This document shows positions 9,901-24,559 of a stretch of 64,000 nucleotides of DNA, piece after piece. The notes below the pieces were generated by a model, which saw nothing but the letters and a program-made list of their open reading frames with translations, did not search any database and was not told the origin of the DNA. Made by a program: the position numbers and the translations under genes. Source of the DNA: Bacteroidota bacterium (lineage in GTDB: Bacteria > Bacteroidota > Bacteroidia > Chitinophagales > Saprospiraceae). The first letter of the stretch is position 1. Every line of letters begins with the position of its first letter. Location: NCBI GenBank assembly GCA_030147525.1, contig JASBVF010000040.1, positions 1 to 64,000 of the forward strand. Direction: 5' to 3'.

Positions 9901-10475
9901 TATTGCCACCCAACGAATACCTCATTGTGGCGAAAGATAAAAGCAAGTATGGGGAGCTTGGCTGTCAGGTGTTTGAATGGACTTCCGGTGAGCTGGAAGA
10001 TAGTGGAGAGCTTATTGAATTGACGGACGATCAGGGGCTTATAATTGAATCTGTAAACTATTCTGCTGCTACTCCCTGGGTCCAGGAGCCTGCCGGTGGC
10101 GGGTCTTCTCTGTCTTTGATTTCTCCATTTTTCAACAATTCAATTCCGCAAAACTGGGAAGCGTCAGTCTTCCATGGAGGCACTCCCTGCGGCGAAAAAT
10201 CACCGGTAAGCGGCAATACCGAACGGGCTTTTTTGCTTAGCCTCTACCCTAATCCGGTCCGTGAGAACCTGATTTTTGAATACTCCACGCTCACAGACGA
10301 AAGTATCGACCTGGAAGTTTTCAATACGCTGGGGCAGGCTGTTCGAAGCATTGAATTACCGCCGGCTGTGTATTTAGAAAAAACAGTCATTCCGGTCAGC
10401 GACTGGCCTGCAGGCATGTACTTTATCCGCATGAAAGGAGATAAAAAAGCAATGCTAAAATTTTTGAAAAGCTGA
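6954..10475 (+). CDS. Multidomain secreted CotH-like protein with lamin-tail domains and T9SS type A sorting signal
   Basis: The 1173-residue protein starts with a Sec signal peptide (hydrophobic residues about 5-22). Domains in order: a beta-rich module at about 25-195; a lamin-tail domain at about 205-330 (VLINELMPANG ... DWVEIYNGS); a chitobiase/hexosaminidase C-terminal-like module at about 363-432 (GATIFYTLDGSTPNPDD, TAIVRAAAFKPG); a CotH kinase-like region at about 440-830 (KIGGGCSRGYKMKSMNI, MFRDGMNQTLL, YLNGEYWGVYGLRE); a bacterial-repeat segment near 880 (AKPGYRFVKW); a second lamin-tail domain at about 933-1045; and a C-terminal T9SS type A domain from about 1091 (LYPNP ... WPAGMYFIRM). 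CotH proteins include protein kinases of spore coats. Here the protein should be exported by the type IX system encoded at 40-48 kb. Target unknown. Confidence 0.9.
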   Translation: MLHRFFTLFLILFLFLASFQQAISQITIPISAPLDDVEERADGSIYTNSTDLELINDGNDQTVGLRFNNLQIPQGLNITGAWLQFTTDEQTVGACNLEIRAQAIDNAPPFQEIYQNVSSRQLTTASVNWQPSGWNVVGETGPLQRSPNLAAVLQEVIARPGWASGNAVVFIITGTGRRTAGAYEGNPAWAARLVVEIDFPEPTAVLENVLINELMPANGLVKDEFGEVEDWVEIYNGSAEMINLNGLYLTDDASNLKKWKISAPKLIPSGGFGLIWLDGDEHQGGLHAPFQLDDEGEFLALSQELNGQLHVLDAFEFPATPFNISYGRLEDGLDEWVFFGEISPEASNNGKGRFLDSKVIFSKPGGFYQGPQSLELSVSDPGATIFYTLDGSTPNPDDEEYTGPVTVSQTAIVRAAAFKPGFARSQVSTENYFISPTPSTLPVVCVQTEPENLWDNQTGIYVSGTNGIPGYCSDEPRNWNQDWERPANITFFEANGTKGFQVNAGIKIGGGCSRGYKMKSMNIYMRSNTYGDESIDYQVFPGLDIHQFKRLKLRNSGNDFDQMMFRDGMNQTLLYNTVDLDLMAYRPVVVYLNGEYWGVYGLRELYNEDYVASHHGVDPKNLDIITNPQAWAEVNEGDFTAFQTIKNFIQNNNLSLPGNYEFLKSRMDMSQYINYNIAQIYLANYDWPANNVRVWRDRNGGKFRWMLYDTDLSTNYGSWTPATSSFNSIHHATTTGGNPWPNSPESTLFLRKLLQNEEFKSEFVQRTATYRKLIFAAQRVHPMVDSLRQMLEPEMPRHISRWNANHPQWGWGVPSGGNISSWNFFVNYYKTFFENRSQQILGHYTATLSLSGTYMLSFVYPQNTPGDLYLHSNDIKIPFNYAGDYFKNVPLKVTAVAKPGYRFVKWLETGETSPEIDFISNQHTTLTPIFIPAAPILTEIHYQPEEGEAYEFLELYNATNEDLAIGGYYFSNSIEFEFPAGTVLPPNEYLIVAKDKSKYGELGCQVFEWTSGELEDSGELIELTDDQGLIIESVNYSAATPWVQEPAGGGSSLSLISPFFNNSIPQNWEASVFHGGTPCGEKSPVSGNTERAFLLSLYPNPVRENLIFEYSTLTDESIDLEVFNTLGQAVRSIELPPAVYLEKTVIPVSDWPAGMYFIRMKGDKKAMLKFLKS

Positions 10476-10663: not shown

Positions 10664-11449
10664 ATGACAGGAAGACTAAAAAAACCCTCTTTGCTGAAAG
10701 CTTTGTTTGAAACACGGGCGATCGTTGAACTGGGAGCTTATTACACGGCCTACCCTTTCCTCCGGAATGTACCGAAGGGCGACGGGCACCCCGTTCTCGT
10801 CATTCCCGGCCTGCTGGCCGGCGACGCTTCCACCAAGCCACTTCGCAAGTTTATCAACGATAAAGGCAATTACGCCTATCCATGGGAAATGGGTCGTAAC
10901 CTTGGCCAGATCGAACACCTGGAAAGGCTGGAAGACCGCATCAAATCACTAAAACTGAAACACGGCAAAAAAGTGACCCTCATCGGCTGGAGCCTCGGCG
11001 GTCTGTATTCCCGTGTTCTGGCCAACCGCAACCCGGCCGACATCCGGCAGGTGATCACGCTCGGCTCGCCGTTCATGGGTATTCATGGGGAAAGCAACGC
11101 TGACTTTGCCTACGAACTGGCCAGTGGCCAAACCAGGGGCGACGTGGCGGAAGCCGTGTCTCAACTGGTTGAAAAAACACCTCCGATGCCTTTCACCTCC
11201 GTTTACTCCAAAGGTGACGGCATCGTTTGCTGGCAGCACTGCATTGACCCAACCGACCGCTACGACGTGCAAAACATCGAAGTGATCGGCAGCCACCTGG
11301 GCCTGGGACACAATCCTTCGGTCCTCGTCGTCGTGGCCGACCGGCTGGCTCAGGAAGAAGGCTACTGGCAACCGTTCGACTTTGACCGGGGCATCAACGG
11401 GCTTGTTTTTCCGCAATTCTGGAAAGGAGCGATGGAAGTGGCAACGTAA
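10664..11449 (+). CDS. Alpha/beta hydrolase (esterase/lipase-like)
   Basis: The 261-residue cytosolic protein has an alpha/beta-hydrolase fold. The nucleophile elbow is GWSLGG with Ser110, the acid is probably Asp185 in SKGDGIVCW, and the base is a His in SHLGLGHN. An oxyanion-type segment VLVIPGLLAG lies near residue 45. No signal peptide is seen, so it acts inside the cell. It is the first gene of the lipid island, just before the acyltransferase fusion, and a role in wax ester or acylglycerol turnover (or acyl transfer) is inferred from context only. A strong terminator follows at 11488. Confidence 0.82.
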   Translation: MTGRLKKPSLLKALFETRAIVELGAYYTAYPFLRNVPKGDGHPVLVIPGLLAGDASTKPLRKFINDKGNYAYPWEMGRNLGQIEHLERLEDRIKSLKLKHGKKVTLIGWSLGGLYSRVLANRNPADIRQVITLGSPFMGIHGESNADFAYELASGQTRGDVAEAVSQLVEKTPPMPFTSVYSKGDGIVCWQHCIDPTDRYDVQNIEVIGSHLGLGHNPSVLVVVADRLAQEEGYWQPFDFDRGINGLVFPQFWKGAMEVAT

Positions 11450-11487
11450 CATTGTCTTGAGGCGGCGACGATGGACGACTTTTCATT

Positions 11488-11520
11488 AAAAGGCGACGGT
11501 ACTCGAGACCGTCGCCTTTT
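11488..11520 (+). terminator. Rho-independent terminator after alpha/beta hydrolase
   Basis: A perfect 13 bp stem, AAAAGGCGACGGT pairing with ACCGTCGCCTTTT around loop ACTCGAG, ends in a T4 run. It separates the hydrolase transcript from the acyltransferase fusion. The stem is A/T-ended on both sides, so it could also work on the other strand. Confidence 0.8.
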
Positions 11521-11603
11521 GAATTTTCAGGCAGAGACGTTTTTTTCCCAATTACTTCCTACTTTAGGCTCAAATTTCAACCAATCCACGACGCTTCCAA
11601 CGC

Positions 11604-14600
11604 ATGGAGAAACTACTCAACGATCCCAGCTTTCAGCAAAAACTGGCTACCGTAGCCGAACAGACCGGGGAAAACTTCAACAAAGTTCAGGCTGAAGCAG
11701 CTGCATACCTGAGAGAACTGTACACCGAACACAAACCCGTTGCCAACCTGCTGGCCGTCGAACTGGGCCAGTACGTCCTCTCCAGGGCTTACGAAAAAAG
11801 CATTGACGTAAACCCCGTCGAACTACGTGCCGTGGCTAAGCTGGTATACCGCCACCCCGTCGCTTTCGTCATGACGCACAAGACCTACATCGACATGTTC
11901 GTGCTCGGGCTGGTGCTCGTGCGGCACGGCCTGCCCATCCCCTACACCTTCGCCGGCATCAACATGGACTTCATCGGGCTGGGGCAACTGGGCCGGCAAA
12001 GCGGCGTTATTTTCATCCGCCGTTCCTTCCAGGACAACCCGGTTTACAAGGTCACGCTGCGGCATTTCATCGCCCACCTTGTAGACGAGCGGCGGAGTTT
12101 CATGTGGGCCATCGAAGGTACCCGCTCCCGCACCGGCAAACTCGTCTGGCCCAAAATGGGCATCCTGAAATACATCATGGAAGCCGAGGAGGACTCGCCG
12201 CAACAGGTGAAATACGTGCCTGTTTCCATCGTTTATGACCTCATCCCTGACGTGAAAGAGATGGCCCGGGAAATGCGGGGCAAGGCCAAAAAAGCCGAGA
12301 GCCTCACCTGGTTTATCGATTACATCAAAAAAATGGGGGAAAAAATGGGGCGCATCTCGCTCCGCTTCGGCGAGCCGATGGATCACCCCGGCAGCCAGGG
12401 CATGGCCAGCATTGAAGCGGAAACGGAGGGCGATTACCCCGTTTCAAAATTCGCCCTCGACCTTGTCCACCGCATCAACCGCATCACGCCGCTGACGACC
12501 ACTTCGCTCGTCACCACGGCCCTGCTGGGCAAATACGCCCTGAACAAACGGGCCATCGAAAGCGACATTTCCGACCTTATGCTTTTGGCTGAAAGCCACA
12601 AAAGCGACGTGCTCGTCGACCGGGGCAAACCCATCGGCGAGTCGGTGCAGCAATCCCTCAACCTGCTCACCCGCACCGGTCTCGTGCAACAACACGGCGA
12701 TAGCCTTAGGGCGAAGTACACCATCCGCCCGGAAGATTTCCTTGCGGTGAACTACTACGCCAACATGGCGGTGCACCATTTTTACCACCGTGCTTTCATC
12801 GAACTGACCCTGGCCCGGGTGGCCGACCTGGCGCCGAAAGACCGACTGCTGGCCTTTTGGAAAGGCATCATGCAACTGAGGGACTTGTTCAAGTTCGAGT
12901 TTTTTTATTCCGATAAAACAACCTTCGTGGACGAGATCGAGGCCGACCTGGGTCACATCGATCCCAACTGGCAGTACACCCTCACCCACCCCGACACTGA
13001 CCTGTTCGAGGTGTTGGAAAAACAAAAACTGCTCGTCTCACCCGTGGTGCTGTACACCTACATCGAGGCGTACAGCGTGGTGGCCTACGCCCTGCGAAAC
13101 TGGGACCCCTTCCACCTTTTCGATGACGAGGAATTTCTGGGCAACTGTATTTTTCTTGGCGGCGAACTTCAGTGGCAGGGACGCATCCAGCGTATCGAGT
13201 CCGTGTCCAAGCCTTTTTTGGAAAATGGTATCCGCTACGTGAAAAACCGGGGCCTTGTCCCCACCCCCGAAGACGACAAAAAAGAGGCGATCAACGAATT
13301 CATTTCCGAGCTGGAAAACATCTCGGAGAGCATCAAACTTTTACAAAAAATCACCATCGCCAAGCCTGCCGACCTGCTGCCGGAGGTGCCCTTCGAGCGG
13401 GCCGTGGTGCCGGGATCCCAAACGGACAGCATCATCCAGCCCATCATGGACGGGGAAAGCGGGCCGCACATCGGCGCATTTTTCGACCTCGACCGCACGC
13501 TCATCCGGGGTTTTTCGGCGAAAGATTTCGTCCAGACCCGCCTGCTCAGCGGCCGCATGTCGGCGCAGGAGATCGTGATGCAGTTTGCCGGCGGTTTGGT
13601 GTATGCTTTCGGCAATGCCAACTTCTCGGGCCTCGCAGCCATCGGGGCGAAGGGTGTGAAAGGCGTGGAGGAGCAGGTTTTCATCGAAGTCGGCGAGGAG
13701 GTTTATTTAAAAAGCCTGGCCAATGCCATCTACCCCGAATCAAGGGCGCTGGTTGCAGCACACCTCGCCAAAGGCCACACCGTCGCCATCGTTTCGGCAG
13801 CCACCCCCTACCAGGTGGACCCGATAGCCCGTGACCTCGACATTCCGCATGTGATGTGTACCCGGATGGAGGTTCACAAGGGTAAATTCACAGGCCGCAT
13901 CATCGAACCGGCCTGCTGGGGCGAGGGCAAGGCCTACGCTGCCCGACAACTGGCTGATAAATTCAAGCTCGACCTCTCGAAAAGTTACTTTTACACCGAC
14001 AGCGTCGAAGACCTGCCCCTGCTCGAAATCGTCGGTAATCCCCGCCCCATGAACCCGGAACCGAAGCTGTCCGCTCTTGCTTTTCAAAACGACTGGCCGG
14101 TTTTCAATTTCGAACTCGAAGGCCAACCGGGCATGACTGACATCGCCCGCACCGTTCTGGCGCTGGGCAGCCTCATCCCTGCCGCCCTTACCGGCGTACT
14201 CACCGGCACCCGCAGCATGAACTGGAACGACGGCGTCAACTCAATGATGGCCGCCGTTGGCGATTTTGTGTGCAACATGGCGGGCATCATGCTTTCGGTA
14301 AAAGGCCAGGAACACCTGTGGTCGCACCGCCCGGCGGTTTTTCTGTTCAACCACCAGAGCAGCGCCGACCTTTTCATCATGGCTAAACTGCTGCGCCGTG
14401 ACGCCCGTGGTGTGGCCAAACAGGAGCTAAAAAATATGCCCATCATCGGACAGATGATGCAGGCAGCCGGTGTCATTTTCCTCGATCGCAGCAATCGGGA
14501 AAAGGCCATCGAAGCGCTTAAACCCGCTGTGGACGCCCTTCAAAACGGCACCTCCATCATCATCGCTCCAGAAGGCACCCGCAGCTACGACTACCGGCTC

Positions 14601-14840
14601 GGCCCTTTCAAAAAAGGCGCTTTTCACATTGCCATGCAGGCCGGTGTGCCCATCGTACCCATCGTGATCGCCAATGCGCACGATGCCATGCCCCGTGGCT
14701 CGAATCTCTTCCGTCCCTCGGTAGTCGAGGTGACCGTGTTGCCACCTATTTTAACCAAAAAATGGAAAGCGGAAGATCTGGACAAACACATAGAAAAAGT
14801 GAGGAGGAAATATTTGAAAGTACTGGGGCAGGAGGAGTGA
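11604..14840 (+). CDS. Three-domain fusion: PlsB-like acyltransferase - HAD-IB phosphatase-like - PlsC-like acyltransferase
   Basis: The 1078-residue protein joins three enzymes of acylglycerol synthesis. Residues about 80-300 form a PlsB/DHAPAT-type acyltransferase: HKTYID (His92, Asp97), GVIFIRRSF, and EGTRSRTGK starting at Glu171. A helical middle part resembles the C-terminal half of PlsB. Residues about 620-830 form a HAD-IB domain with nucleophile motif DLDRT (Asp628, Asp630) and late acidic YTDSVEDLPLL. Residues about 900-1070 form a PlsC-type domain: NHQSSAD (His917, Asp922), GVIFLDR, and APEGTR (Glu990). HAD-PlsC fusions are known. Adding an N-terminal PlsB-like unit suggests one chain could take glycerol-3-phosphate to phosphatidate and, if the HAD domain is a phosphatidate phosphatase, to diacylglycerol. 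That last step is inference. GpsA and WS/DGAT genes follow. Confidence 0.9.
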   Translation: MEKLLNDPSFQQKLATVAEQTGENFNKVQAEAAAYLRELYTEHKPVANLLAVELGQYVLSRAYEKSIDVNPVELRAVAKLVYRHPVAFVMTHKTYIDMFVLGLVLVRHGLPIPYTFAGINMDFIGLGQLGRQSGVIFIRRSFQDNPVYKVTLRHFIAHLVDERRSFMWAIEGTRSRTGKLVWPKMGILKYIMEAEEDSPQQVKYVPVSIVYDLIPDVKEMAREMRGKAKKAESLTWFIDYIKKMGEKMGRISLRFGEPMDHPGSQGMASIEAETEGDYPVSKFALDLVHRINRITPLTTTSLVTTALLGKYALNKRAIESDISDLMLLAESHKSDVLVDRGKPIGESVQQSLNLLTRTGLVQQHGDSLRAKYTIRPEDFLAVNYYANMAVHHFYHRAFIELTLARVADLAPKDRLLAFWKGIMQLRDLFKFEFFYSDKTTFVDEIEADLGHIDPNWQYTLTHPDTDLFEVLEKQKLLVSPVVLYTYIEAYSVVAYALRNWDPFHLFDDEEFLGNCIFLGGELQWQGRIQRIESVSKPFLENGIRYVKNRGLVPTPEDDKKEAINEFISELENISESIKLLQKITIAKPADLLPEVPFERAVVPGSQTDSIIQPIMDGESGPHIGAFFDLDRTLIRGFSAKDFVQTRLLSGRMSAQEIVMQFAGGLVYAFGNANFSGLAAIGAKGVKGVEEQVFIEVGEEVYLKSLANAIYPESRALVAAHLAKGHTVAIVSAATPYQVDPIARDLDIPHVMCTRMEVHKGKFTGRIIEPACWGEGKAYAARQLADKFKLDLSKSYFYTDSVEDLPLLEIVGNPRPMNPEPKLSALAFQNDWPVFNFELEGQPGMTDIARTVLALGSLIPAALTGVLTGTRSMNWNDGVNSMMAAVGDFVCNMAGIMLSVKGQEHLWSHRPAVFLFNHQSSADLFIMAKLLRRDARGVAKQELKNMPIIGQMMQAAGVIFLDRSNREKAIEALKPAVDALQNGTSIIIAPEGTRSYDYRLGPFKKGAFHIAMQAGVPIVPIVIANAHDAMPRGSNLFRPSVVEVTVLPPILTKKWKAEDLDKHIEKVRRKYLKVLGQEE

Positions 14841-14842
14841 AT

Positions 14843-14941
14843 TTGTAAATTGGTGAACTGGTGAACTGGTGAACTGGTGAATTAGTGAATTGGTAAATTA
14901 GGCGTGACCCGGCCTAATTCACTAATTCACCAGTTTACAAA
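14843..14941. repeat. Low-complexity inverted repeat (GGTGAACT / GAATTGGTAAATT family)
   Basis: The left arm is a run of near-heptamer units (TGGTGAAC three times, then TTAGTGAAT, TGGTAAATTAG). The right arm is the complement, CTAATTCACTAATTCACC then GTTTACAA, around GCGTGACCCGGC. It sits between the acyltransferase fusion and gpsA, both on the plus strand. The same word family recurs at 23941 and 25359. Confidence 0.8.
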
Positions 14942-14953
14942 AAATACCTACGC

Positions 14954-15955
14954 ATGAATCTCAACATCGGCATACTCGGCGGCGGCTCCTGGGGCACTAC
15001 TTTGGGCTCGCTGATTTCCCGCAACACACCCACCAAAATCTGGGCACGCAGCTCGAAGACCGTTGAAGAAATAAACGAACAGCATAGCAACGAAAAATAC
15101 CTGCCCGGCGTCAAACTCTCCGAATCGCTGAAGGCGGTCACCTCCATCCGAAAAGCCGTAAAACGGGCCGATGTGGTCGTAATGGCAGTGCCATCGCACA
15201 GTTTTCGGCAGGTGCTGGAAGACGCTAAACCGCACATCCGCCCCTGGGTACCTATCATCAGTCTGACCAAGGGGCTGGAAGAAGGCACCCACATGCGCAT
15301 GACCCAAATCATCGAAACCGTGATGCCCGGCCACCCGGCTGGCGTACTCACCGGCCCTAACCTTGCCCGTGAAATCATGGCCGGGCAGGCGGCGGCCAGT
15401 GTTATCGCCATGGTGGATGACACCCTCGCCCAGGCGCTGCAAAAGGTTTTCCGTTCAGGCCTTTTCCGGGTGTACACCAACGACGACGTGATCGGCTGCG
15501 AGTTAGGCGGGGCACTGAAAAACGTTATCGCCATTGCTGCCGGCATGGGCGACGGTGCCGGAGCCGGCGACAATACCCGTGCTGCCCTCATCACACGGGG
15601 CCTGGCTGAACTGACCCGCCTCGGCGTGGCTATGGGCGGAAAACCTGCCACTTTCGCCGGCCTGGCCGGTATGGGCGATCTCGTGGCCACCTGCAACAGC
15701 TCGAAAAGCCGTAACTGGACCGTAGGGTATAACCTGGGAAAAGGCCGCAAAATCGAAGACATCATCGCCGAAATGTCGATGGTAGCTGAGGGTGTGAAAA
15801 CCTGCGGTGTGGTTCGGGAACTTGGTAAAAAACACGACCTGGCAATGCCGATTACCGAAGAGGTTTACAAAGTTTTACACGAAGGAAATACAGTAGGTGA
15901 CGCCTTCCGGGGACTGCTGCGGCACGAGTCGGGGTCGGAGGCGGATCCGGGGTGA
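14954..15955 (+). CDS. gpsA: Glycerol-3-phosphate dehydrogenase [NAD(P)+]
   Basis: The 333-residue enzyme reduces dihydroxyacetone phosphate to sn-glycerol-3-phosphate, the backbone for phospholipid and acylglycerol synthesis. Seen in sequence: N-terminal GILGGGSWGTTL dinucleotide loop, the SLTKGLE segment, LTGPNLAREI, the catalytic-lysine region GGALKNVIAIAAG, GDNTRAALITRGLAE, and FAGLAGMGDLVATC. Length and motif order are normal for GpsA. Its position, 113 bp after the acyltransferase fusion and facing the WS/DGAT gene, fits supply of glycerol-3-phosphate to a local lipid pathway. It could equally be the only housekeeping copy; other loci are not visible. Confidence 0.96.
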   Translation: MNLNIGILGGGSWGTTLGSLISRNTPTKIWARSSKTVEEINEQHSNEKYLPGVKLSESLKAVTSIRKAVKRADVVVMAVPSHSFRQVLEDAKPHIRPWVPIISLTKGLEEGTHMRMTQIIETVMPGHPAGVLTGPNLAREIMAGQAAASVIAMVDDTLAQALQKVFRSGLFRVYTNDDVIGCELGGALKNVIAIAAGMGDGAGAGDNTRAALITRGLAELTRLGVAMGGKPATFAGLAGMGDLVATCNSSKSRNWTVGYNLGKGRKIEDIIAEMSMVAEGVKTCGVVRELGKKHDLAMPITEEVYKVLHEGNTVGDAFRGLLRHESGSEADPG

Positions 15956-15957
15956 GA

Positions 15958-16019
15958 TTTGAAATTGGAAATTAGGAAATTTAAGGTCAACGAGAATTTC
16001 CCAATTTCCTAATTTCCCA
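15958..16019. repeat. Low-complexity inverted repeat (GGAAATTAGGAAATT family), convergent gene junction
   Basis: TTTGAAATTGGAAATTAGGAAATT faces AATTTCCCAATTTCCTAATTTCCC around a short GGTCAACGAG loop. It fills the gap between the ends of gpsA and the convergent WS/DGAT gene and may act as a two-way terminator. A single unpaired arm of the same words lies at about 52628-52660. Confidence 0.75.
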
Positions 16020-17804
16020 CTACCCTCCCATCGGCGGCACCAACGACAAAATCTTGCCCAGCTTCATCGCCTTCGACATGTCGCCGTCAATTTTCAGGCG
16101 GCCCTGGATGAAAGCGGCCTGCACATTCAGACTACCATCAGCGATGCGGATCAGGTGCTCGTCCTTGATGGTCAGGGTGATGTCGGCAGTGCCCTTGGTT
16201 CCCTTGCGAACGGCACCGGGCTGATTGGTAAAATCAAGTTTCCAGCCGGCGGCAGGCTCTTCGATGATGAACTGGTAAACGCCGCTGTTCGGGAAGATCG
16301 CCGTGGGATTTTCCTTGATGAATTTTTTGATGTGGTTAAAAAACTTGTCCGACTTGGCTTTGGCTGCTTTTTTAACAGCTTTTTTCACCTCCGCCTTTTT
16401 TTCACGATTTAAAATAGCAGCCTCCAACTCATTCGCCGACTCCCGGATGTAGCGGGAAAACTTGTCAATGTCAGGCATCGACTTCGCATCCGACGTGGGG
16501 CTGATGGTGAGCAGCCCGTTATAACTTAAAACCGTGATAATCAACCCCATACCGTCGATGATGGGCGCCATTCCCATGATCGCCAGCAGCTTGTGGCCGT
16601 TAAGGTAGAGCGGGAACTGCGGCCCCGGCACGTTCGAAATGGTCACGTTGAAAACCGGTTTGTGCAACTTTGCCAGGTTATATCGGCTGTAAAGCTGGGC
16701 GGCCTGGTTGGCAATTCCGAAGGGCACCACCTCAGCCATTTGCGCCAGCGTTTTCGCACCGATGGCGTTTTGGTAAGCCTTGCCACGCAGGGTGTTTTCG
16801 TGGATTACCTCCAGGCGCTCTATCGGATCATCGATGTTGGTTGCCAACTGCACCAGCATGTTGGAAAGCTCGTTGCTGCCGTTGCCCTTCTGCTCACCCG
16901 AGCGGGTTGAAATCGGGATCATAGCCACGAGCGGCTTCTCCGGCAGTTTTTCCTTTTCATTTAAGTATCGTCGCAAAGCGCCGGCACAAATGGCCAGCAC
17001 CACGTCGTTGAGCGTCGTGCCCATGATACTTTTCAATGCCTTCACTCTGTCGAGCGAGAGAATGGCCGTATTCCATTTGCGGCGGGCTGAAATGATGCCG
17101 TTCAGCGGTGTGGGTGGTGCTGTGAACGGGGCAGCGGGCAGGTCGGCCCATTGCACCCGGCTCAGCATGCCGGACTTGACGGTGGCGGTGACGGCCTCTG
17201 TGATTATTTTTGGCAGTTTGAACGGGCGGGTGGCAAAGCTGACCGAGCTTTTCAGCATCAAAGCCAGATCGTTGGGAAGCGGCGCCGGTTTCCAGGGACG
17301 AGGTTCGGGAATTTCCTTCACCTCGTCCGTCATGTCGAAAATCAGGCTGAGAACGCCTGCCCCCGCCATACCGTCAATCGCCACATGGTGCATTTTTGAA
17401 ATGGCAGCCACGGAGCCTTTCGGTACCTGCGGAATGGTGTCGAGCCCTTCCACGAAAGTGAAGGACCAGAGCGGCCGGTTGCGGTCGAGCGGTTCGCTGA
17501 AAATTTGCGAAGCGATGGCCCGGAGTTCCTTCCAGCCCCCCGGTTTGGGCAGGGCGATGTGACGGATGTGGAGGTTGAGGTCGAAATGCGGATCGTCCAC
17601 CCAATACGGGTAATCAATACCGAAGGGCACCATCACGAGCCGTTTGCGCAGCTTGGGAATGAGGTGCAGGCGGGAGGCAATGATTTTTTTAAACGTTTCA
17701 AACTTTAGAGAACCCTCGATGACGAGCACGCTTCCCACGTGCATGTGTTGTGTGGGCGACTCCCCGTAAAGAAAAGTTGCGTCCATCCCGGAGATGGGTT
17801 CCAT
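16020..17804 (-). CDS. Wax ester synthase/diacylglycerol acyltransferase (WS/DGAT) fused to C-terminal SCP2 domain
   Basis: WS/DGAT enzymes esterify acyl-CoA with fatty alcohols or diacylglycerol and drive storage-lipid formation. The start chosen is the ATG at 17804 (594 residues), giving the typical beginning MEPISGMDATFLYGE; a GTG 13 codons upstream is the alternative. The catalytic HHxxxDG is present as HHVAIDG (His139, His140, Asp144), and conserved PLWSFTFVEG and NVTISNVPGP blocks follow. Usual WS/DGATs end near 450-480 residues. Here a Lys/Ala-rich linker (KKAVKKAAKAK) leads to a domain at about 500-590 that reads as SCP2 sterol/lipid carrier (GTADITLTIKDE, FIQGRLKIDGDM..AMKL). The fusion suggests a built-in lipid-binding module. 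Very likely a storage-lipid enzyme; product type is not decidable. Confidence 0.92.
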   Translation of the reverse strand: MEPISGMDATFLYGESPTQHMHVGSVLVIEGSLKFETFKKIIASRLHLIPKLRKRLVMVPFGIDYPYWVDDPHFDLNLHIRHIALPKPGGWKELRAIASQIFSEPLDRNRPLWSFTFVEGLDTIPQVPKGSVAAISKMHHVAIDGMAGAGVLSLIFDMTDEVKEIPEPRPWKPAPLPNDLALMLKSSVSFATRPFKLPKIITEAVTATVKSGMLSRVQWADLPAAPFTAPPTPLNGIISARRKWNTAILSLDRVKALKSIMGTTLNDVVLAICAGALRRYLNEKEKLPEKPLVAMIPISTRSGEQKGNGSNELSNMLVQLATNIDDPIERLEVIHENTLRGKAYQNAIGAKTLAQMAEVVPFGIANQAAQLYSRYNLAKLHKPVFNVTISNVPGPQFPLYLNGHKLLAIMGMAPIIDGMGLIITVLSYNGLLTISPTSDAKSMPDIDKFSRYIRESANELEAAILNREKKAEVKKAVKKAAKAKSDKFFNHIKKFIKENPTAIFPNSGVYQFIIEEPAAGWKLDFTNQPGAVRKGTKGTADITLTIKDEHLIRIADGSLNVQAAFIQGRLKIDGDMSKAMKLGKILSLVPPMGG

Positions 17805-17865
17805 ATCGCCTTCGGTAAGTTGACCGAGTAATTTTCCTATCACAGCGTTTAGTTTTTAAATTTTG

Positions 17866-17929
17866 CCCGCAGATGTCGCAGATTTTCACAGACAAACCCT
17901 TCGATTTAAAAATCTGCGGCATCTGCGGG
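17866..17929. repeat. Inverted repeat of CCGCAGAT-TCGCAGA family in WS/DGAT leader
   Basis: Arms 17866-17886 and 17909-17929 pair over 21 bp with one mismatch (CCCGCAGATGTCGCAG versus CTGCGGCATCTGCGGG). The hairpin lies between a candidate promoter and the WS/DGAT start, so it may form in the messenger leader. A sister copy lies at 20996-21047. Confidence 0.85.
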
Positions 17930-17938
17930 AGATGACTC

Positions 17939-17973
17939 CAAAAGTAAGGTTTTTGCTAAAATATCATGAACAA
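17939..17973 (-). promoter_or_regulatory. Candidate promoter for WS/DGAT gene
   Basis: Minus-strand TACTTTTG (17939-17946) matches TAnnTTTG exactly. TTG (17971-17973) lies 24 bp upstream, a little longer than usual. The inferred transcript would begin near 17932 and carry the inverted repeat in a leader of about 130 bases. Confidence 0.4.
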
Positions 17974-18048
17974 TGAATTTGGATGTAACCGGGGTGTAAC
18001 GCTCAAGTCTTACCTTTACCTGATCTGTTCATCCACATTTCATTAAAA

Positions 18049-18582
18049 ATGGCAACCAAAAAAGACGAAACCGCTTCCTTCGTACTCCGCTTCACCCAGA
18101 AGATTTTTGAAAATGACGAAGGCGAACCCCAGGTGCAGTGGCGTGGCAACATCCGCCACGTGCAGGGCGGCGATGAAAAAAATTTCTCCGAATTCAACGA
18201 AGTCGTGCAGTTCATCCAGGGCAAATTGACTGACCTGACCATCATCGCCATGGAGGACAAAACGCCCGAAGAGCAAAAAGGCATCCTCGCCAAAAGCTTC
18301 GACCTGTGGAAACGCATGGCCCTCGCCAGCCCTAAAATGGTCATGGAAACGCTCAAAGACCCCAAGGCCGGCGTCGAACACATCCAGGAGCAGGTCACTG
18401 CTGCCGTGCAGGAGCAGGCCAGGGAGGTCGAGGAGTTGATCCAGTCCAAAATTGACCCGGACAGTTGGAAGCCAGCCACCAAAGCGGATGTAAAAAACCT
18501 CACAAAGTCGCTTGCCAATCTCACCGGCACCCTCGATGCGTTAAACAAAAAAGTGGATAAGCTTTCCAAAAAAACGAAATGA
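18049..18582 (+). CDS. Small unknown protein with amphipathic helical C-terminal half
   Basis: I do not recognise the 177-residue protein as a named family. Residues about 8-60 form a compact beta-rich stretch (SFVLRFTQKIF, VQWRGNIRHVQGG) that recalls short hypothetical proteins of the pattern W-R-G-x-I-x-H-V-Q-x-G. Residues about 85-177 are predicted long amphipathic helices rich in Lys, Glu, Ala and Gln, ending in a coiled-coil-like NLTKSLANLTGTLDALNKKVDKLSKK, much like phasins or other granule-coat proteins. No signal peptide is visible. Its TGA overlaps the ATG of the next gene (ATGA), so translation is coupled to the SARP-like regulator. A near-match to the -7 box, TACCTTTA, is at 18011. 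Confidence 0.72.
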   Translation: MATKKDETASFVLRFTQKIFENDEGEPQVQWRGNIRHVQGGDEKNFSEFNEVVQFIQGKLTDLTIIAMEDKTPEEQKGILAKSFDLWKRMALASPKMVMETLKDPKAGVEHIQEQVTAAVQEQAREVEELIQSKIDPDSWKPATKADVKNLTKSLANLTGTLDALNKKVDKLSKKTK

Positions 18583-19391
18583 GCAACGCCGCCGGTCAGA
18601 TCGCCCTCCTCGTTGAAAAAAGAGCCGCCGCAGCTGTGCAGGTGCAGACGCTGGGCCGGTTCCAGATTTGGGTGGACGGTAATAGGGTCCATGAAAAAGA
18701 ATGGGGCCGTGACAAAACCGTACAGTTGTTTCAGTTCCTCGTCACCGCCCGCCACCGACGGGGAATGCACCGTGAGCAAATTGTCGATCGCATCTGGGAA
18801 GACCTCGACGAGAAGGCGGGCGAACAGAATTTCAAAGTAGCCCTCCATGGCATCAACAAAGTGCTGGAACCCGACCGCAAAAGCCGCTCCGAGGCTCGTT
18901 TCATTGCCCGTCAGGGGCAGACCTACCAGTTGAATCTCGATGAAATGTGGATCGATGCCGACGCCATGGAAGCTTTCATAGCCCTGGGCAACCAGCTACT
19001 GTCCGACGACCCCGGCGCTGCGAAACTGGCCTATCAGGAGGCTATCACGCTGCACCACGGCATTTACCTGCCCAACCGCCTCTACGAAGACTGGTCGAGC
19101 GACGAACGGGAACGCCTGCAGGTGCTGGCCCTTGGAGCCACGATCACCCTCGGCGAACTTCGCCTCGATGAAAACCCGCTCGAAAGCGTCCGCCTCGCCC
19201 AGCAGGCCCTCCTGCTCGACCCCACCTGGGAAGACGCCTACCGACTCGAAATGCAGGCCTACCTCCGCAAATGCAACCGCCCGATGGCCATCAAATCTTA
19301 CCGTCAATGTGAAAAAATACTGGCCGAAGAATTCGGCATAGAACCCCTCCCAGAGACGAAAAAGCTGCTCAAAGAAATCCAGTCGATCTGA
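18579..19391 (+). CDS. SARP/AfsR-type regulator with winged-helix and BTAD domains
   Basis: The 270-residue protein matches the SARP layout: an OmpR-like winged helix at about 20-105 (TLGRFQIWVDG, LFQFLVTARHRRGMHREQIVDRIWED, NFKVALHGINKVLEP) followed by a bacterial transcriptional activator domain of helical TPR-like repeats at about 110-268 (LAYQEAITLHHGIYLPN, YEDWSSDERERLQ, RLEMQAYLRKCNRPMAIKSYRQCEKILAEEFGIEPLPET). Such regulators are best known from Actinobacteria and Chloroflexota and are uncommon in Bacteroidota. It has no ATPase or sensor domain. The ATGA overlap with the helical protein before it implies joint expression, and it is the only regulator-like gene in the lipid island, so local control is inferred. 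Confidence 0.85.
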   Translation: MSNAAGQIALLVEKRAAAAVQVQTLGRFQIWVDGNRVHEKEWGRDKTVQLFQFLVTARHRRGMHREQIVDRIWEDLDEKAGEQNFKVALHGINKVLEPDRKSRSEARFIARQGQTYQLNLDEMWIDADAMEAFIALGNQLLSDDPGAAKLAYQEAITLHHGIYLPNRLYEDWSSDERERLQVLALGATITLGELRLDENPLESVRLAQQALLLDPTWEDAYRLEMQAYLRKCNRPMAIKSYRQCEKILAEEFGIEPLPETKKLLKEIQSI

Positions 19392-19452
19392 CTTCCCTCT
19401 CACTTCTCTCACCCTCTCACTCCTCTGTAACTCATCTGTAACTACCCCACCT

Positions 19453-19460
19453 TATTTTTG
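19453..19460 (+). promoter_or_regulatory. Candidate -7 box TATTTTTG for phasin-like gene
   Basis: An exact TAnnTTTG match lies 36 bases before the ATG at 19496. No TTG is found at the -33 position. The preceding CTCT-rich stretch has no other signal. Confidence 0.35.
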
Positions 19461-19495
19461 CATCGTGATTTTAATTAAACAAAAAAAAGTAAGAC

Positions 19496-20206
19496 ATGGC
19501 AACCAAAAACATAAATAAGAAAAATCAAGTCTCGACAATCGATTTGCTGAAAAACAAAGCTGCTGAATTTAACAAAGTAGCCTTGAAAGCATCCAATGAA
19601 ATCGTGGATGAGACGATCGCAGCCGGTGAACAGTGGCAGAATGTTTTCGCCAAAGCCCTCAAAAAAGGCACCGTATTGTTCGCCAAACAACAAGAGCTGG
19701 CCCTCAACAGCCTCGAAGCAGTGAAGGAACAATTCGCTTACGGAAATAAGCGTACGAAGAAACTTTTCGCCCAGACCGCTCCGAAGCAAAAGGCCGCCAA
19801 CCTCGAAAAAGCGGGCAGAGACATTGACGAACTGATGGACGCAGTACTTCAGGAAGAAAAACCGGTGAAAAAAGCCGCTAAAAAAGCCCCGGCAAAAGCT
19901 GCTAAAAAACCGGCCGCCGCTCCGGCAAAAAAAGAACTCCCTTCAACAACAGCGAAACCTACTGATCTGACCGTCGTCGAAGGCATCGGCCCGAAAATTC
20001 AGGAACTGCTGAACAAGGCAGGCATCACCGATCTCGAAAAATTGGCTGAAGCAAATCCGGCAGACCTGAAAACGATCCTGACCGACGCAGGTACCCGCTA
20101 CCAGATGCACGATCCTTCCACGTGGCCGGCACAGGCAAAACTCGCCGCTGCCGGTAAAATGGAAGAACTCGCCTCCCTGAAAGAGGAACTGAAAGGCGGG
20201 AAGTAA
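19496..20206 (+). CDS. Phasin-like protein with Lys/Ala/Pro tail and helix-hairpin-helix domain
   Basis: The 236-residue protein has three parts. Residues about 12-85 are a phasin-like helical module (EIVDETIAAGEQWQNVFAKA ... KQQELALNSLEAVKEQF), a pattern shared with the C-terminal part of the next gene. Residues about 120-155 are a histone-H1-like run of Lys, Ala and Pro (KKAAKKAPAKAAKKPAAAPAK). Residues about 160-236 form a helix-hairpin-helix domain with LTVVEGIGPKIQELLNKAG and TRYQMHDPSTWPAQAKLA, as in predicted 5' nuclease-like or DNA-binding HhH proteins. Architecture parallels PhaF of Pseudomonas, a phasin with an H1-like tail that links polymer granules to the nucleoid. By analogy it may tether lipid inclusions to DNA; this is inference. 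Confidence 0.8.
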   Translation: MATKNINKKNQVSTIDLLKNKAAEFNKVALKASNEIVDETIAAGEQWQNVFAKALKKGTVLFAKQQELALNSLEAVKEQFAYGNKRTKKLFAQTAPKQKAANLEKAGRDIDELMDAVLQEEKPVKKAAKKAPAKAAKKPAAAPAKKELPSTTAKPTDLTVVEGIGPKIQELLNKAGITDLEKLAEANPADLKTILTDAGTRYQMHDPSTWPAQAKLAAAGKMEELASLKEELKGGK

Positions 20207-20216
20207 ATAATGTTTA

Positions 20217-20263
20217 ATTGTTAATGGCTAATGTTTAATTTTTTAAATACGGCCATTAACAAT
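20217..20263. repeat. Inverted repeat ATTGTTAATGGC / GCCATTAACAAT between phasin-like genes
   Basis: Perfect 12 bp arms at 20217-20228 and 20252-20263 flank a low-complexity AT loop. The right side continues in short words of the pattern AATCAAGC / AATCAAAC. It lies in the 107 bp gap between the two phasin-like genes, which have no terminator between them. Confidence 0.75.
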
Positions 20264-20313
20264 CTGACAATCAAGCAATCAAACAATTTAACAACAATCA
20301 AATCGTAAATAAA

Positions 20314-20928
20314 ATGGCAACCAAATCCGTAAAAGCAACCGAAAAAAAGACCACCCTCGATAAAAACGTTGACCGTATCCAGAAAACGGCCAAAAATGTT
20401 GAGAAAGAAGTGGTTCAAACTGCCAACGTAGTCGTTGACAACGTGAAGGCCGACAGCAAAGAATTGCAGGCCCTCGCTACCAAAACCGTGAAGGAAGCCG
20501 GTAAAAAACTGGACCTCAAAAAGAATGTTGATGTAATCCAGAAAACGGCCAAAAGCGTGAATGAACAAATTCTCAAAACCGCCGAGGACGTTGTGGAAGA
20601 CATCACCAAAACCGGCAAAGAGGCTGTTAAAAAGGCCATCGAAAATACCCGTGAAGCCATCGAGAACTTCGATGTGGACAAGCAGGTGAAAGAAGCCCGC
20701 AAAACTGCCCAGAAAGTCAACGCCGCAGCGCTTGAAACTGCCGATGAAATGGTGGACGACATATTCTCTGCCGGTGAAAAATGGCAAAAAGTGGCTGAAA
20801 AGGCCGTGAAAGGCGGTTTGCACCTCGCCGGCCGTCAGCAGGAAATCTTCTTCGATACGCTGGAAACGATGAAAGGCCAGTTTTCAAAAAGTGCCGTTCG
20901 CTTCCGGAAGATTTTCAGCAATAACTAA
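20314..20928 (+). CDS. Phasin-like helical protein with three internal repeats
   Basis: The 204-residue, Lys/Glu/Val/Ala-rich, fully helical protein lacks a signal peptide. Three related units are visible: KNVDRIQKTAKNVEKEVVQTANVVVD (from about residue 12), KNVDVIQKTAKSVNEQILKTAEDVVED (about 69) and KQVKEARKTAQKVNAAALETADEMVDD (about 123). The last runs into AGEKWQKVAEKAVKGGLHLAGRQQEIFFDTLETMKGQF, which is clearly paralogous to the N-terminal part of the preceding gene. Repeated amphipathic helices fit a surfactant-like coat on hydrophobic inclusions. Apolipoprotein-like or LEA-like stress proteins are alternatives. A strong terminator follows, which closes the unit. Confidence 0.78.
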   Translation: MATKSVKATEKKTTLDKNVDRIQKTAKNVEKEVVQTANVVVDNVKADSKELQALATKTVKEAGKKLDLKKNVDVIQKTAKSVNEQILKTAEDVVEDITKTGKEAVKKAIENTREAIENFDVDKQVKEARKTAQKVNAAALETADEMVDDIFSAGEKWQKVAEKAVKGGLHLAGRQQEIFFDTLETMKGQFSKSAVRFRKIFSNN

Positions 20929-20957
20929 AGAACACACGAGTTAAAAAGACCAAATCG

Positions 20958-20990
20958 AGCCGGGGCGGATTTTTCGCCGCCGGCTTTTTT
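20958..20990 (+). terminator. Rho-independent terminator after phasin-like gene
   Basis: AGCCGG-GGCG pairs with CGCC-GCCGGCT with a one-base bulge and is followed by TTTTTT. It separates the phasin-like unit from the ArsA-type ATPase. Confidence 0.82.
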
Positions 20991-20995
20991 ATTTT

Positions 20996-21047
20996 TCCGC
21001 AGATTTCGCAGATTTTTGGGTAAAACCTTCTGCGACAATCTGCGGGA
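20996..21047. repeat. Inverted repeat of CCGCAGAT-TCGCAGA family before ArsA-type ATPase
   Basis: CCGCAGATTTCGCAGA pairs with TCTGCGACAATCTGCGG, with one extra base in the right arm. It is the sister of the copy at 17866-17929, and like it lies directly ahead of a gene of the lipid island (ATG at 21069). Confidence 0.78.
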
Positions 21048-21068
21048 GCCCAAAGTTTAACATTCACC

Positions 21069-22226
21069 ATGCGTATCATCCTTTTTACCGGCAAAGGCGG
21101 CGTAGGCAAAACAACCATGGCCGCAGCGACAGCCGTCGAAGCCGCCCGAAAGGGGATCAAAACCCTCGTCATCTCCACCGACCCGGCGCACAGCCTCTCC
21201 GATGCAATGGACATCAGCCTGAGCCCCGAACCCGTACAAATCCAGCCCAACCTCTACGCCCAGGAATTCGACGTGTACTATTCCATGGAAAAATACTGGA
21301 ACAACATGCGTAACCTGATGCAGACTATCTTCCGGTGGAGGGGTGTGGGTAACGTGGTGGCAGAGGAGCTTTCCGTCCTGCCCGGCATGGAAGAGGCCTC
21401 GGCATTTCTTTGGCTGGAAAAATATTACCGGGAGGGCGACTACGAGTTGATCGTCATCGACAGTGCGCCGACGGGCGAAACGCTGACCCTGCTCTCCCTG
21501 CCCCAGGTCGCCAAATCCTGGATGACCAAGGCTTTTTCACGAAAGAACCTCGCCGTACGCACGGTCACCAAGGGCGTGCAGGTGTTCACCGGCGTCCCTC
21601 TGGACAAGGGACTGGAGGAACTGGAAGAACTGTTCGACAAGCTCGAAAAAATCCAGCAGGTATTTCTCGACCCGAAAGTCTGCTCCATCCGCATCGTGAC
21701 CAACCCGGAGCGCATGGTAGTCAAAGAAGCCAAGCGTGCCTACACTTACCTGCAACTTTACGGTTACAACGTGGATGCCGTCATCATCAACCGCATTTTA
21801 CCGAAAGAAGAAGTGGGGCGTGTTTTTAAAAACTACATCGAATCACAGGCCGGATACATCCGTGAAATCGAGGAGAGCTTCGACCCCATTCCCGTGTTGA
21901 AGGTGGAGCACCAGGGACGGGAGGTTTTCGGCATCGAACTTTTGAAAAACATCGCCCGCTCGCTGTACGCCGGGAAAGAACCCGCTAAAATCCTGCACCT
22001 CGACAAGCCCTTCGAGCTGATCGAGAATAAGGAGGGCTATTTTTTCAAAACCCGCCTGCCCTTTGTCAAAGAGGAGGAAATCGAGCTGAAAAAATTCGGC
22101 GACGAGCTGGTCATCGACCTCGGCAACCGCCGCCGTTCTATCATTTTACCACGTTTCGCCAGTTTTTTGAAACTGAAAGAGTACAGGTTTCAGGCGCCGT
22201 GGTTGCTGGTTTCGCTGGTGAAATGA
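21069..22226 (+). CDS. ArsA/Get3-family ATPase with C-terminal HSP20-like domain
   Basis: The 385-residue protein begins with the deviant Walker A of the MinD/ArsA/Get3 class (FTGKGGVGKTT, residues about 5-15). Switch and A-loop segments follow: STDPAHSLSDAMD near 37 and VIDSAPTGETL near 137. Only one ATPase domain is present, so like Get3 it should work as a dimer. The last 75 residues (KTRLPFVKEEEIELKKFGDELVIDLGNRRRSI) resemble the alpha-crystallin/HSP20-like domain attached to some bacterial ArsA proteins. No arsenic-resistance genes are nearby, so arsenite efflux is unlikely. Its place next to hydrophobic coat proteins suggests a targeting or chaperone role. It ends 5 bp from the convergent GMC gene. 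Confidence 0.88.
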   Translation: MRIILFTGKGGVGKTTMAAATAVEAARKGIKTLVISTDPAHSLSDAMDISLSPEPVQIQPNLYAQEFDVYYSMEKYWNNMRNLMQTIFRWRGVGNVVAEELSVLPGMEEASAFLWLEKYYREGDYELIVIDSAPTGETLTLLSLPQVAKSWMTKAFSRKNLAVRTVTKGVQVFTGVPLDKGLEELEELFDKLEKIQQVFLDPKVCSIRIVTNPERMVVKEAKRAYTYLQLYGYNVDAVIINRILPKEEVGRVFKNYIESQAGYIREIEESFDPIPVLKVEHQGREVFGIELLKNIARSLYAGKEPAKILHLDKPFELIENKEGYFFKTRLPFVKEEEIELKKFGDELVIDLGNRRRSIILPRFASFLKLKEYRFQAPWLLVSLVK

Positions 22227-22231
22227 CCTGA

Positions 22232-23929
22232 TTACCCTTCCCGTTTCAATTCTTCCACTGCATGATTCGCCGCCCGTGCCGTCAGCGCCATGAAGGTCAG
22301 CGACGGATTTTGGGTCGAAAACGAGGTCATGCATGCCCCGTCAGTGACGTACACGTTGGGGCAGGCGTGGAGCTGGTTCCATTCGTTGAGCAGCGAAGTC
22401 TTCGGGTCACGGCCCATGCGCACACCGCCCATTTCGTGGATGTCCAAACCCGGCGCCTGCTTCGTGTCATGAGTTTGGATGTCAGTGAAACCGGCCTTTT
22501 TGTACATGTCGGTGAACTGCTCGAAGAAGTCCTGGATCATTTTTTCATCGTTGTTATCGTGCTCGACGCTGATACGCAGTTGCGGGATGCCCCAGGCGTC
22601 TTTCAATTGCTCATCGAGCGCCACGAAGCCGGACTCCTTCGGAATGGTTTCACCCATCATATGCGAAGAAACATTCCAGGGGCCGTAGTCCTTCGAGCCG
22701 AGCAGGTTGCCGGTCAGTTCCTGACCGAAGCCCTGGCGATTGACGCTGAGGTTTCGACCTGAATAAAATCCGGCGGCATAGCCCCGTAGGAAGTCGGTTT
22801 CCTGCCGGTACACATTGCGGAAGCGGGGAATGTAAGCGCTGGTAGGCCGTCCACCCACCGTTTTGAATTCCTGGTGACCCTCGTGCCGTGCCCAGATTTT
22901 ACCCCGGTAAATGTGGAAGCCGACGTATTTGCCCAGCAGTCCGTTGTCATTGCCGAGACCGTTGGGGAAGCGATCGGACTTGGAGTTGAGCAGCACGAGG
23001 TTCGTGTTCAGTGTTGCAGCGTTTACGAAGATGATTTTGGCAAAATACTCAGTCGTCTCTTTCGTCTCTGCGTTAATGACCCGAACGCCCGTGGCCCGGT
23101 TTTCTTTTTCATCAAAAATGATGGAATGCACTACGGAATGCGGTTGCAGCGTGAGGTTACCGGTGCGCTGCGCCCAGGGAATGACCGTGGAGTTGGCGTT
23201 GAAATACCCACCGAACGGGCAGCCCCGCTGGCAGATGTTGCGGCCCTGGCAGAGCACCCTGCCCTGCTGTTTGAAAATCTCCCGCTCTTCGGTGATATGG
23301 GCACAGCGACTGTAGATCACATGACGGTCCTTGTAATGTTTTTTCACTTCATCCCTGAAATGCTGCTCCACGCAGGTCATGTCGAAGGGTTTCAGGAAAT
23401 CGCCGTCGGGCAACATGTCCAGCCCATCTTTATTACCGGAGACGCCGATAAACTGCTCAACCCGGGTGTACCATTTTTCCAGATCCTTGTAGCGGATGGG
23501 CCAGTCCACGGCGAAGCCGTCCCGGGCCGGGCCTTCGAAGTCGAAGTCGCTCCAGCGTTGCACCTGCCGTGCCCACATGATCGACTTGCCGCCCACCTGG
23601 TAGCCCCGTATCCAGTCAAAGGGCTTGTCCTGCACGTAGGGGTGTTCGGTGTCTTTCACAAAAAAATGCATGGCATCCTCCCGAAAGGCGTAGCATCGGC
23701 TGATGACCGGATTTTCCTTTTCCACCTCGTAGGGGATGCGTCCCCGGTGCTTGAATTCCCAGGGCTGCATGGCGGTGGTGGGATAATCGGCGATGTGTTC
23801 CACGTTGCGGCCCCGTTCGAGCATGAGGGTTTTGAGGCCTGCTTCGCAAAGTTCTTTGGCAGCCCAGCCGCCGGTCATACCGCCCCCGATGATGATGGCG
23901 TCGAAATGATGATCTGTGTTATTTGGCAT
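22232..23929 (-). CDS. GMC-family FAD-dependent oxidoreductase (glucoside-3-dehydrogenase-like catalytic subunit)
   Basis: The 565-residue flavoprotein has an N-terminal FAD Rossmann motif (IIIGGGMTGGWAAKELCEAG), an early glutamate contact in LMLERG, the segment GYQVGGKSIMWARQVQRWS, a cysteine-rich stretch CQGRNICQRGCPFGG, and the C-terminal active site with His in HEMGGVRMG and Asn in STQNPSLT. This matches GMC dehydrogenases that pair with a small gluconate-2-dehydrogenase-subunit-3 protein, such as glucoside 3-dehydrogenases. It lacks its own signal peptide, so co-export with the neighbouring small subunit is plausible. Last gene of a five-gene minus-strand run that includes GH9 and DUF1080 genes. 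The electron acceptor is unknown; no cytochrome subunit is adjacent. Confidence 0.87.
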   Translation of the reverse strand: MPNNTDHHFDAIIIGGGMTGGWAAKELCEAGLKTLMLERGRNVEHIADYPTTAMQPWEFKHRGRIPYEVEKENPVISRCYAFREDAMHFFVKDTEHPYVQDKPFDWIRGYQVGGKSIMWARQVQRWSDFDFEGPARDGFAVDWPIRYKDLEKWYTRVEQFIGVSGNKDGLDMLPDGDFLKPFDMTCVEQHFRDEVKKHYKDRHVIYSRCAHITEEREIFKQQGRVLCQGRNICQRGCPFGGYFNANSTVIPWAQRTGNLTLQPHSVVHSIIFDEKENRATGVRVINAETKETTEYFAKIIFVNAATLNTNLVLLNSKSDRFPNGLGNDNGLLGKYVGFHIYRGKIWARHEGHQEFKTVGGRPTSAYIPRFRNVYRQETDFLRGYAAGFYSGRNLSVNRQGFGQELTGNLLGSKDYGPWNVSSHMMGETIPKESGFVALDEQLKDAWGIPQLRISVEHDNNDEKMIQDFFEQFTDMYKKAGFTDIQTHDTKQAPGLDIHEMGGVRMGRDPKTSLLNEWNQLHACPNVYVTDGACMTSFSTQNPSLTFMALTARAANHAVEELKREG

Positions 23930-23940
23930 TTTTTGATTGA

Positions 23941-24030
23941 TAAATTAGTGAATTGGTGGATTAGTGAATTGGTAAATTGGGAGCGACGCAGCAGCTTGCT
24001 CAACCCAATTTACTAATTCACCAATTCACC
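23941..24030. repeat. Low-complexity inverted repeat (AATTAGTGAATTGGT family)
   Basis: AAATTAGTGAATTGGTGG and TTAGTGAATTGGTAAATTGGG (23942-23981) face CCCAATTTACTAATTCACCAATTCACC (24004-24030). It separates the GMC gene from its small-subunit gene although both are transcribed in the same direction. Same word family as 14843 and 25359. Confidence 0.82.
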
Positions 24031-24033
24031 GTT

Positions 24034-24549: not shown

Positions 24550-24559
24550 TTTTCTCTTT

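Follow-up and report, generated by a model that had tools for sequence, protein, structure and literature searches.

Does the gene block at positions 10664 to 22226 of the 64,000-nucleotide stretch of DNA analyzed here (the window, which lies on contig 17 of a 7.08-Mb Saprospiraceae genome, G000) encode a dedicated apparatus for the storage of neutral lipids, and if so, for which product? The original prediction read it as a self-contained island for the synthesis and coating of wax esters or triacylglycerol. Judged from the genes alone, the block is probably dedicated to the storage of neutral lipids, triacylglycerol being the most likely product. The gene cassette as such is real, conserved, and patchily distributed. 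Its enzymatic half is of a known kind; the half that consists of genes for two coat-like proteins (p2 and p3), the protein p1, and a BTAD/SARP-type regulator appears to be the new part. Taken as a whole, the original prediction is partly supported.

Ten adjoining genes were examined, those for an alpha/beta hydrolase (abH), an acyltransferase-phosphatase-acyltransferase fusion, GpsA, a wax ester synthase/diacylglycerol acyltransferase (WS/DGAT), p1, the BTAD protein, p2, p3, an ArsA/Get3-type ATPase, and a GMC oxidoreductase that lies beyond the block. Domains were assigned from Pfam and NCBIfam profile scans, judged against the curated cut-offs. The predicted open reading frames all occupy the positions given below, with their signature motifs intact.

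Enzymes of the block and their conserved association

The fusion protein (positions 11604 to 14840, plus strand; 1078 amino acids [aa]) combines a glycerol-3-phosphate acyltransferase (GPAT) module, a HAD-IB phosphatase, and a 1-acylglycerol-3-phosphate acyltransferase (AGPAT). PF19277 (GPAT_C) is above its cut-off, the HAD-IB part scores 159.6 bits against TIGR01490 (cut-off, 98.3), and the second acyltransferase part scores 141.2 bits against TIGR00530 (cut-off, 102.95). HX4D and DxDxT are the catalytic motifs of the acyltransferase and HAD domains, and HHxxxDG is the active-site motif of WS/DGATs. The window protein has HX4D at residues 92 and 916 and the HAD motif FDLDRT at residue 627; among the 38 fusion sequences of at least 1000 aa, the window one counted, HX4D, DxDxT, and the second HX4D are found in 38, 37, and 38, respectively.

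The WS/DGAT (positions 16020 to 17843, minus strand) scores 446 bits against TIGR02946 (cut-off, 310), 202 against PF03007 (cut-off, 23.6), and 104.5 against PF06974 (cut-off, 20.7). Its active-site motif, HHVAIDG, starts at residue 152 and is kept in 51 of the 52 sequences of at least 440 aa (window counted). The top matches among solved structures, 7nxg and 6chj, are labelled O-acyltransferase WSD and diacylglycerol O-acyltransferase. Since residue 1 of 6chj aligns at residue 14 of the WS/DGAT, translation probably starts at ATG 17804 rather than at GTG 17843. The C-terminal SCP2 lipid-carrier domain, which matches sterol and fatty-acid carriers, is a feature beyond the original account.

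The locus copy of GpsA (positions 14954 to 15955, plus strand; NF009098, 506 bits versus a cut-off of 436) is an optional part of the cassette. Among 12 genomes examined, two gpsA genes are present in all 6 whose locus holds gpsA, and there is a single one in 3 genomes with a locus that lacks it and in 3 genomes of the same genera without the locus. Thus, the second gpsA occurs only together with the locus copy, which therefore looks dedicated. The remaining enzyme, abH (positions 10664 to 11449, plus strand), is a putative lipase/esterase or thioesterase. Its residues Ser110 (in GWSLGG), Asp185, and His211, presumably the catalytic triad, are invariant in all 20 aligned sequences. No source of acyl-CoA is seen in the block, so that “self-contained” was too strong a term.

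The association of these genes was assessed throughout in one and the same set of 248 genomes from the order, using Fisher tests that ignore relatedness. WS/DGAT is encoded in 36 of them. These include all 14 genomes with p1 (p = 1.4e-13) and all 15 with a strong match to the p2/p3 core (best match of at least 79 bits; p = 1.4e-14); each of the latter 15 has two clear copies, the weaker one scoring at least 47 bits. At the p2/p3 cut-off of E = 0.001, G245 (21.8 bits, with an internal stop) was admitted as well; it was set aside as a chance match and would make the count 15 of 16. Strong abH matches are present in 26 genomes, 25 of them with WS/DGAT (p = 1.1e-24), the exception being G076, which has the fusion and no WS/DGAT match. 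At E = 0.001, abH is found in 69 genomes, of which only the 26 above 90 bits were counted, a line drawn after the gap between 92.6 and 35.5 bits had been seen. The full-length fusion is encoded in 19 of the 56 genomes examined for it, 18 of which have WS/DGAT. The same covariation is seen within the Saprospiraceae genera g1 (G000 versus G190, G214, and G222), g6 (G244 versus G086), and g18 (G206 versus G242): in each, the genome named first combines WS/DGAT with p1, p2/p3, strong abH, and the complete fusion, and those set against it have none of these at full strength. This comparison covers the genomes among the matches listed, and other mixed genera may exist.

The WS/DGATs can also be divided by length. 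The long form, defined as an open frame of at least 593 aa, serves as a proxy for the presence of SCP2, which Pfam confirmed in the window protein only; it is found in 20 of the 36 WS/DGAT genomes. The full fusion accompanies it in 18 of these 20, and is found in none of the 16 other WS/DGAT genomes and in 1 of 20 further genomes (G076). The two long-form genomes without the full fusion are G110 (82% complete) and G122 (75%). Within the same 20 genomes, p2/p3 is present in 15 and p1 in 14.

Gene order was compared in 45 loci from named genomes, mostly Saprospiraceae metagenome-assembled genomes, that were found through the fusion gene; they overlap the 248-genome set, and the two are not independent samples. 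Of these loci, 22 extend 9 kb or more past the 3' end of the fusion; among them, WS/DGAT is present in 17, abH in 15, p2/p3 in 14, BTAD in 13, p1 in 13 (in one case on the upstream side of the fusion, with WS/DGAT absent from the stretch), GpsA in 2, and ArsA in none. WS/DGAT, abH, p2/p3, BTAD, and p1 occur all together in 12. In the commonest order, p1-BTAD-p2-p3-abH-WS/DGAT are encoded on one strand, tail to tail with the fusion, with or without GpsA. The window has a rearranged form, with abH ahead of the fusion and with p1-BTAD-p2-p3 and WS/DGAT in divergent orientation.

Linkage alone does not explain this pattern. Six of the 14 genomes with p1 have it on a different contig from WS/DGAT. 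One of these, G244, may represent a contig break, with a p2/p3-type gene at the end of both contigs; in the fetched stretches of the other five (G001, G041, G155, G158, and G206), there is no WS/DGAT near p1, which speaks against mere hitchhiking. The conserved co-occurrence that the original prediction had set as its own test is found: p1, p2/p3, abH, and the fusion track WS/DGAT and usually adjoin it. Its further claim, that these genes form one pathway, agrees with the co-occurrence and the order kept across genomes, except that ArsA is not part of the core.

Coat-like proteins and the p1-BTAD pair

The proteins p2 (positions 19496 to 20206) and p3 (positions 20314 to 20928), both encoded on the plus strand, have a common core with a hydrophobicity periodicity of 98.8 degrees per residue and a helical-band strength matched by none of 2000 shuffled sequences. 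This fits an amphipathic surface helix, and both proteins are putative droplet coats. In the window, p3 has two weaker repeats upstream of the core. Most p3-type proteins comprise 88 to 100 aa and have no C-terminal tail; the window protein and a small number of relatives are longer owing to extra N-terminal sequence. The p2-type proteins have a longer C-terminal part, which is mostly rich in Lys/Arg and Ala, or contains a helix-hairpin-helix (HhH) motif, or both. In the window p2, the core is followed by a Lys/Ala-rich linker and a terminal HhH/DUF4332 domain; its tail has 19% Ala, the HhH motif, and two matches to a loose PAKKA-like pattern. The protein is a putative DNA tether as well.

The 177-aa p1 (positions 18049 to 18582, plus strand) has an N-terminal beta-beta-beta-alpha domain, modeled at a pLDDT of ~81 to 86, followed by lower-confidence helices. 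It carries amphipathic helices and a helical tail and shows no fold match in the PDB at E = 0.001 and no consistent Pfam match. Like p1, the coat-like proteins match no Pfam family above its cut-off, and p1 and p2/p3 appear to be new families. The stop codon of p1 overlaps the start of the gene for the Pfam-recognized BTAD/SARP-type regulator (positions 18579 to 19391, plus strand) by four bases (ATGA), and BTAD adjoins p1 at every annotated locus in which p1 was found.

Two characterized systems show a similar layout. In Pseudomonas, the short amphipathic coat protein PhaI shares an operon with its longer paralogue PhaF, whose C-terminal tail is positively charged and of the AAKP type (PMC5658603). 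In Rhodococcus jostii, the droplet protein MLDS has a DNA-binding PAKKA tail and shares an operon with the slightly overlapping gene for the regulator MLDSR (PMC5504291). The basic tail and/or HhH domain of p2 recalls both PhaF and MLDS. However, p2/p3 have no family-level sequence match to PhaF/PhaI, their partner is WS/DGAT instead of a polyhydroxyalkanoate (PHA) synthase, and, unlike PhaF, some p2 proteins have an HhH domain and not all p2 tails are basic. The Rhodococcus pair differs in that the overlapping genes of Saprospiraceae are those of p1 and BTAD, the regulator is of the SARP/BTAD type, and the coat core is of no known family. By analogy with MLDSR and MLDS, p1 and BTAD are perhaps a droplet-sensing regulator pair.

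The same features could be read differently: p1, p2, and p3 might be nucleoid or cytoskeletal proteins that coat no droplets and share the operon for regulatory reasons. The Lys/Ala-rich tails or HhH domain of p2 relatives and the low model confidence of the helical cores agree with this. Nevertheless, we consider it unlikely, as it is at odds with the co-occurrence with WS/DGAT even where p1 is not adjacent, with the amphipathic character of the cores, and with the pairing of a tailed and a short paralogue as in PhaF/PhaI.

The likely product and the points for and against it

If the cassette serves for storage, its steps would be as follows. GpsA, where present as an extra copy, would supply glycerol-3-phosphate, which the fusion protein would acylate twice to phosphatidate, its HAD domain then removing the phosphate to give diacylglycerol. 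WS/DGAT would add the third acyl chain, with the SCP2 domain handling or delivering lipid. The oil would gather in droplets covered by the paralogous helical proteins p3 and p2, which may be tied to the nucleoid through the basic tail and/or HhH domain of p2; abH would trim or mobilize the lipid, and the p1-BTAD pair might regulate the set, perhaps by sensing droplets. Triacylglycerol is the likeliest product because the GPAT, phosphatase, AGPAT, and extra GpsA point to diacylglycerol, and because there are precedents for such partners of WS/DGATs. Thus, atf9 of strain RHA1 sits downstream of a GPAT gene (PMC2667194), and a HAD-AGPAT partner of WS/DGAT with a possible role in diacylglycerol formation was noted by Galvan et al. 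(PMC10351704).

The alternative that the product is wax esters, made from fatty alcohol and acyl-CoA, with the glycerolipid enzymes serving phospholipid synthesis, is rather improbable. Several bacterial WS/DGATs are bifunctional (PMC10351704), but the same neighboring enzymes that point to diacylglycerol speak against it, as does the lack of a fatty acyl-CoA reductase among the 10 genes examined. A genome-wide search for this reductase with PF07993 does not discriminate, since its control was positive in all 14 genomes.

WS/DGATs have a loose alcohol specificity, and this, together with the carrier-like SCP2 domain, would suit esterification of some other alcohol (a sterol, hopanoid, isoprenoid, or secondary metabolite) to give a membrane or surface lipid instead of a store. 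Given the neighboring coat-like proteins and complete Kennedy-type pathway, we regard this as quite improbable.

Several observations weigh against the storage reading, and in particular against a droplet coat. The amphipathic periodicity of p2/p3 also fits coiled coils, and their helical parts are modeled at low confidence. Both proteins fall below every phasin cut-off: p3 reaches 17.4 bits against Phasin_2 (gathering score, 24.9; E = 0.005), p2 reaches E = 1.6e-5 against PhaH at 25 bits versus a cut-off of 250, and a scan of 21 core members gave PhaP_Bmeg (E = 0.0025) in one and no phasin family in the other 20. The “phasin-like” label originally given to the two proteins thus rests on their shape and not on family membership, and is an analogy. 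The tail of the window p2 is weakly basic (17% Lys plus Arg versus 15% Asp plus Glu) and that of the p2 in G179 is net acidic, so that DNA tethering by these two is a guess. The long WS/DGAT also occurs in five genomes (G065, G085, G092, G110, and G116; 82 to 96% complete) in which p1 and p2/p3 were both not found, and G122 shows p2/p3 and no p1, so that the coat may not be obligatory. Genus g82, of another family, splits the markers: in G110, WS/DGAT is accompanied by a partial abH and the full fusion is missing, and G076 (93% complete) has abH and the fusion without WS/DGAT. Finally, Raman measurements showed glycogen or PHA in five other Saprospiraceae genera, in passages that do not deal with storage fat (PMC9304909).

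That p2 and p3 are PHA phasins whose WS/DGAT neighborhood is incidental, as the weak sub-threshold phasin matches might suggest, is very improbable, because the window genome has no PhaC_N match and the 14 of 248 genomes that do (12 above cut-off) include none with WS/DGAT and none with p2/p3, although the non-overlap of PhaC with WS/DGAT is not significant by itself (p = 0.23).

The enzymes of the cassette have published counterparts. The original prediction knew of no comparable locus in Bacteroidota, which does not hold for WS/DGAT-SCP2 next to an acyltransferase/hydrolase gene: Galvan et al. (2023; PMC10351704) describe Bacteroidota WS/DGATs of ~613 aa, with SCP2 detected in 2 of 4 sequences and an AGPAT/hydrolase gene nearby, and mention an alpha/beta hydrolase beside WS/DGAT in Gammaproteobacteria. 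In contrast to the locus described here, section 25 of that article, its gene-context supplementary figure aside, makes no mention of genes for coat-like proteins, BTAD, p1, or a paired hydrolase, and the strings “saprospir” and “btad” are absent from its main text. For these coat-like, p1, and BTAD genes, no report was found in the open-licence literature, supplements aside, and to this extent the claim of novelty stands. A plasmid of Mycobacterium paragordonae also has WS/DGAT, alpha/beta hydrolase, HAD-AGPAT, and GPAT modules near each other. There, the fusion is matched over 97% of its length, at 34% identity, by two adjacent genes, unlike the single fused gene of Saprospiraceae; the 471-aa WS/DGAT is too short for an SCP2 tail, and the hydrolase is not clearly of the same family. 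The abH, p1, p2/p3, and BTAD profiles have no match in this neighborhood.

Spread of the cassette and adjoining genes

In a midpoint-rooted tree of 53 WS/DGATs, the long form and 5 shorter relatives make up one fully supported group, set apart from other Bacteroidota enzymes by very long branches. At several points the tree places enzymes from family f12 within those of f1; lateral movement of the cassette between families, or its loss, may lie behind this. Across the phylum sample of 395 genomes, any WS/DGAT is found in 21, the window genome counted. Loci L026 to L030 and the phylum loci L122 to L144 represent a very different, mostly shorter WS/DGAT type found elsewhere in the phylum; strong abH, the full fusion, and p2/p3 were not seen in the genomes of the order that carry this type. 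The same fusion, at 57 to 61% identity, is also present in two records titled Anaerolineales/Anaerolineae, with WS/DGAT in L070 and GpsA in L045, which may reflect misbinning or transfer between phyla.

A more far-reaching picture is tentative and on balance somewhat doubtful: some Bacteroidota would carry a fat-droplet cassette that moves laterally and brings its own organelle kit, with two coats of one new family, one of which ties droplets to the chromosome, and a p1-BTAD switch that senses droplets. If true, the arrangement seen in PhaF/PhaI and MLDS/MLDSR would have been invented independently a third time. At the bench, the coat-like and p1 families could be used directly to learn how bacteria build, divide, and sense their droplets. 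In wastewater plants, Saprospiraceae are abundant and storage is discussed in terms of glycogen, PHA, and polyphosphate (PMC9304909), and a compact marker set of the fusion, WS/DGAT-SCP2, p1, and p2/p3 would sort genomes into likely fat-storers and others.

The ArsA/Get3-type ATPase (positions 21069 to 22226, plus strand), which has an HSP20-like tail and scores 258 bits against TIGR00345 (cut-off, 135), is an optional addition to the cassette and not part of its core. At E = 1e-30 it is found in 13 of the 248 genomes, 7 of them with WS/DGAT (p = 0.0007). It adjoins the p2/p3 pair in all three Saprospiraceae genomes that have it, those of the window, L161 (G210:C109), and L179 (G238:C66). In L161 and L179, it also adjoins a copy of abH, and the three together form a second cluster away from WS/DGAT; the window seems to combine the main cluster with one of this type.

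Downstream of the block, the GMC oxidoreductase gene at positions 22232 to 25342 is followed by more genes on the same strand; there are 5 GMC matches in the genome at E = 1e-50, this one counted. Upstream, positions 6954 to 10475 encode a large, secreted-looking protein of 1173 aa, which may be of the CotH/lamin-tail type and carry a C-terminal sorting domain.

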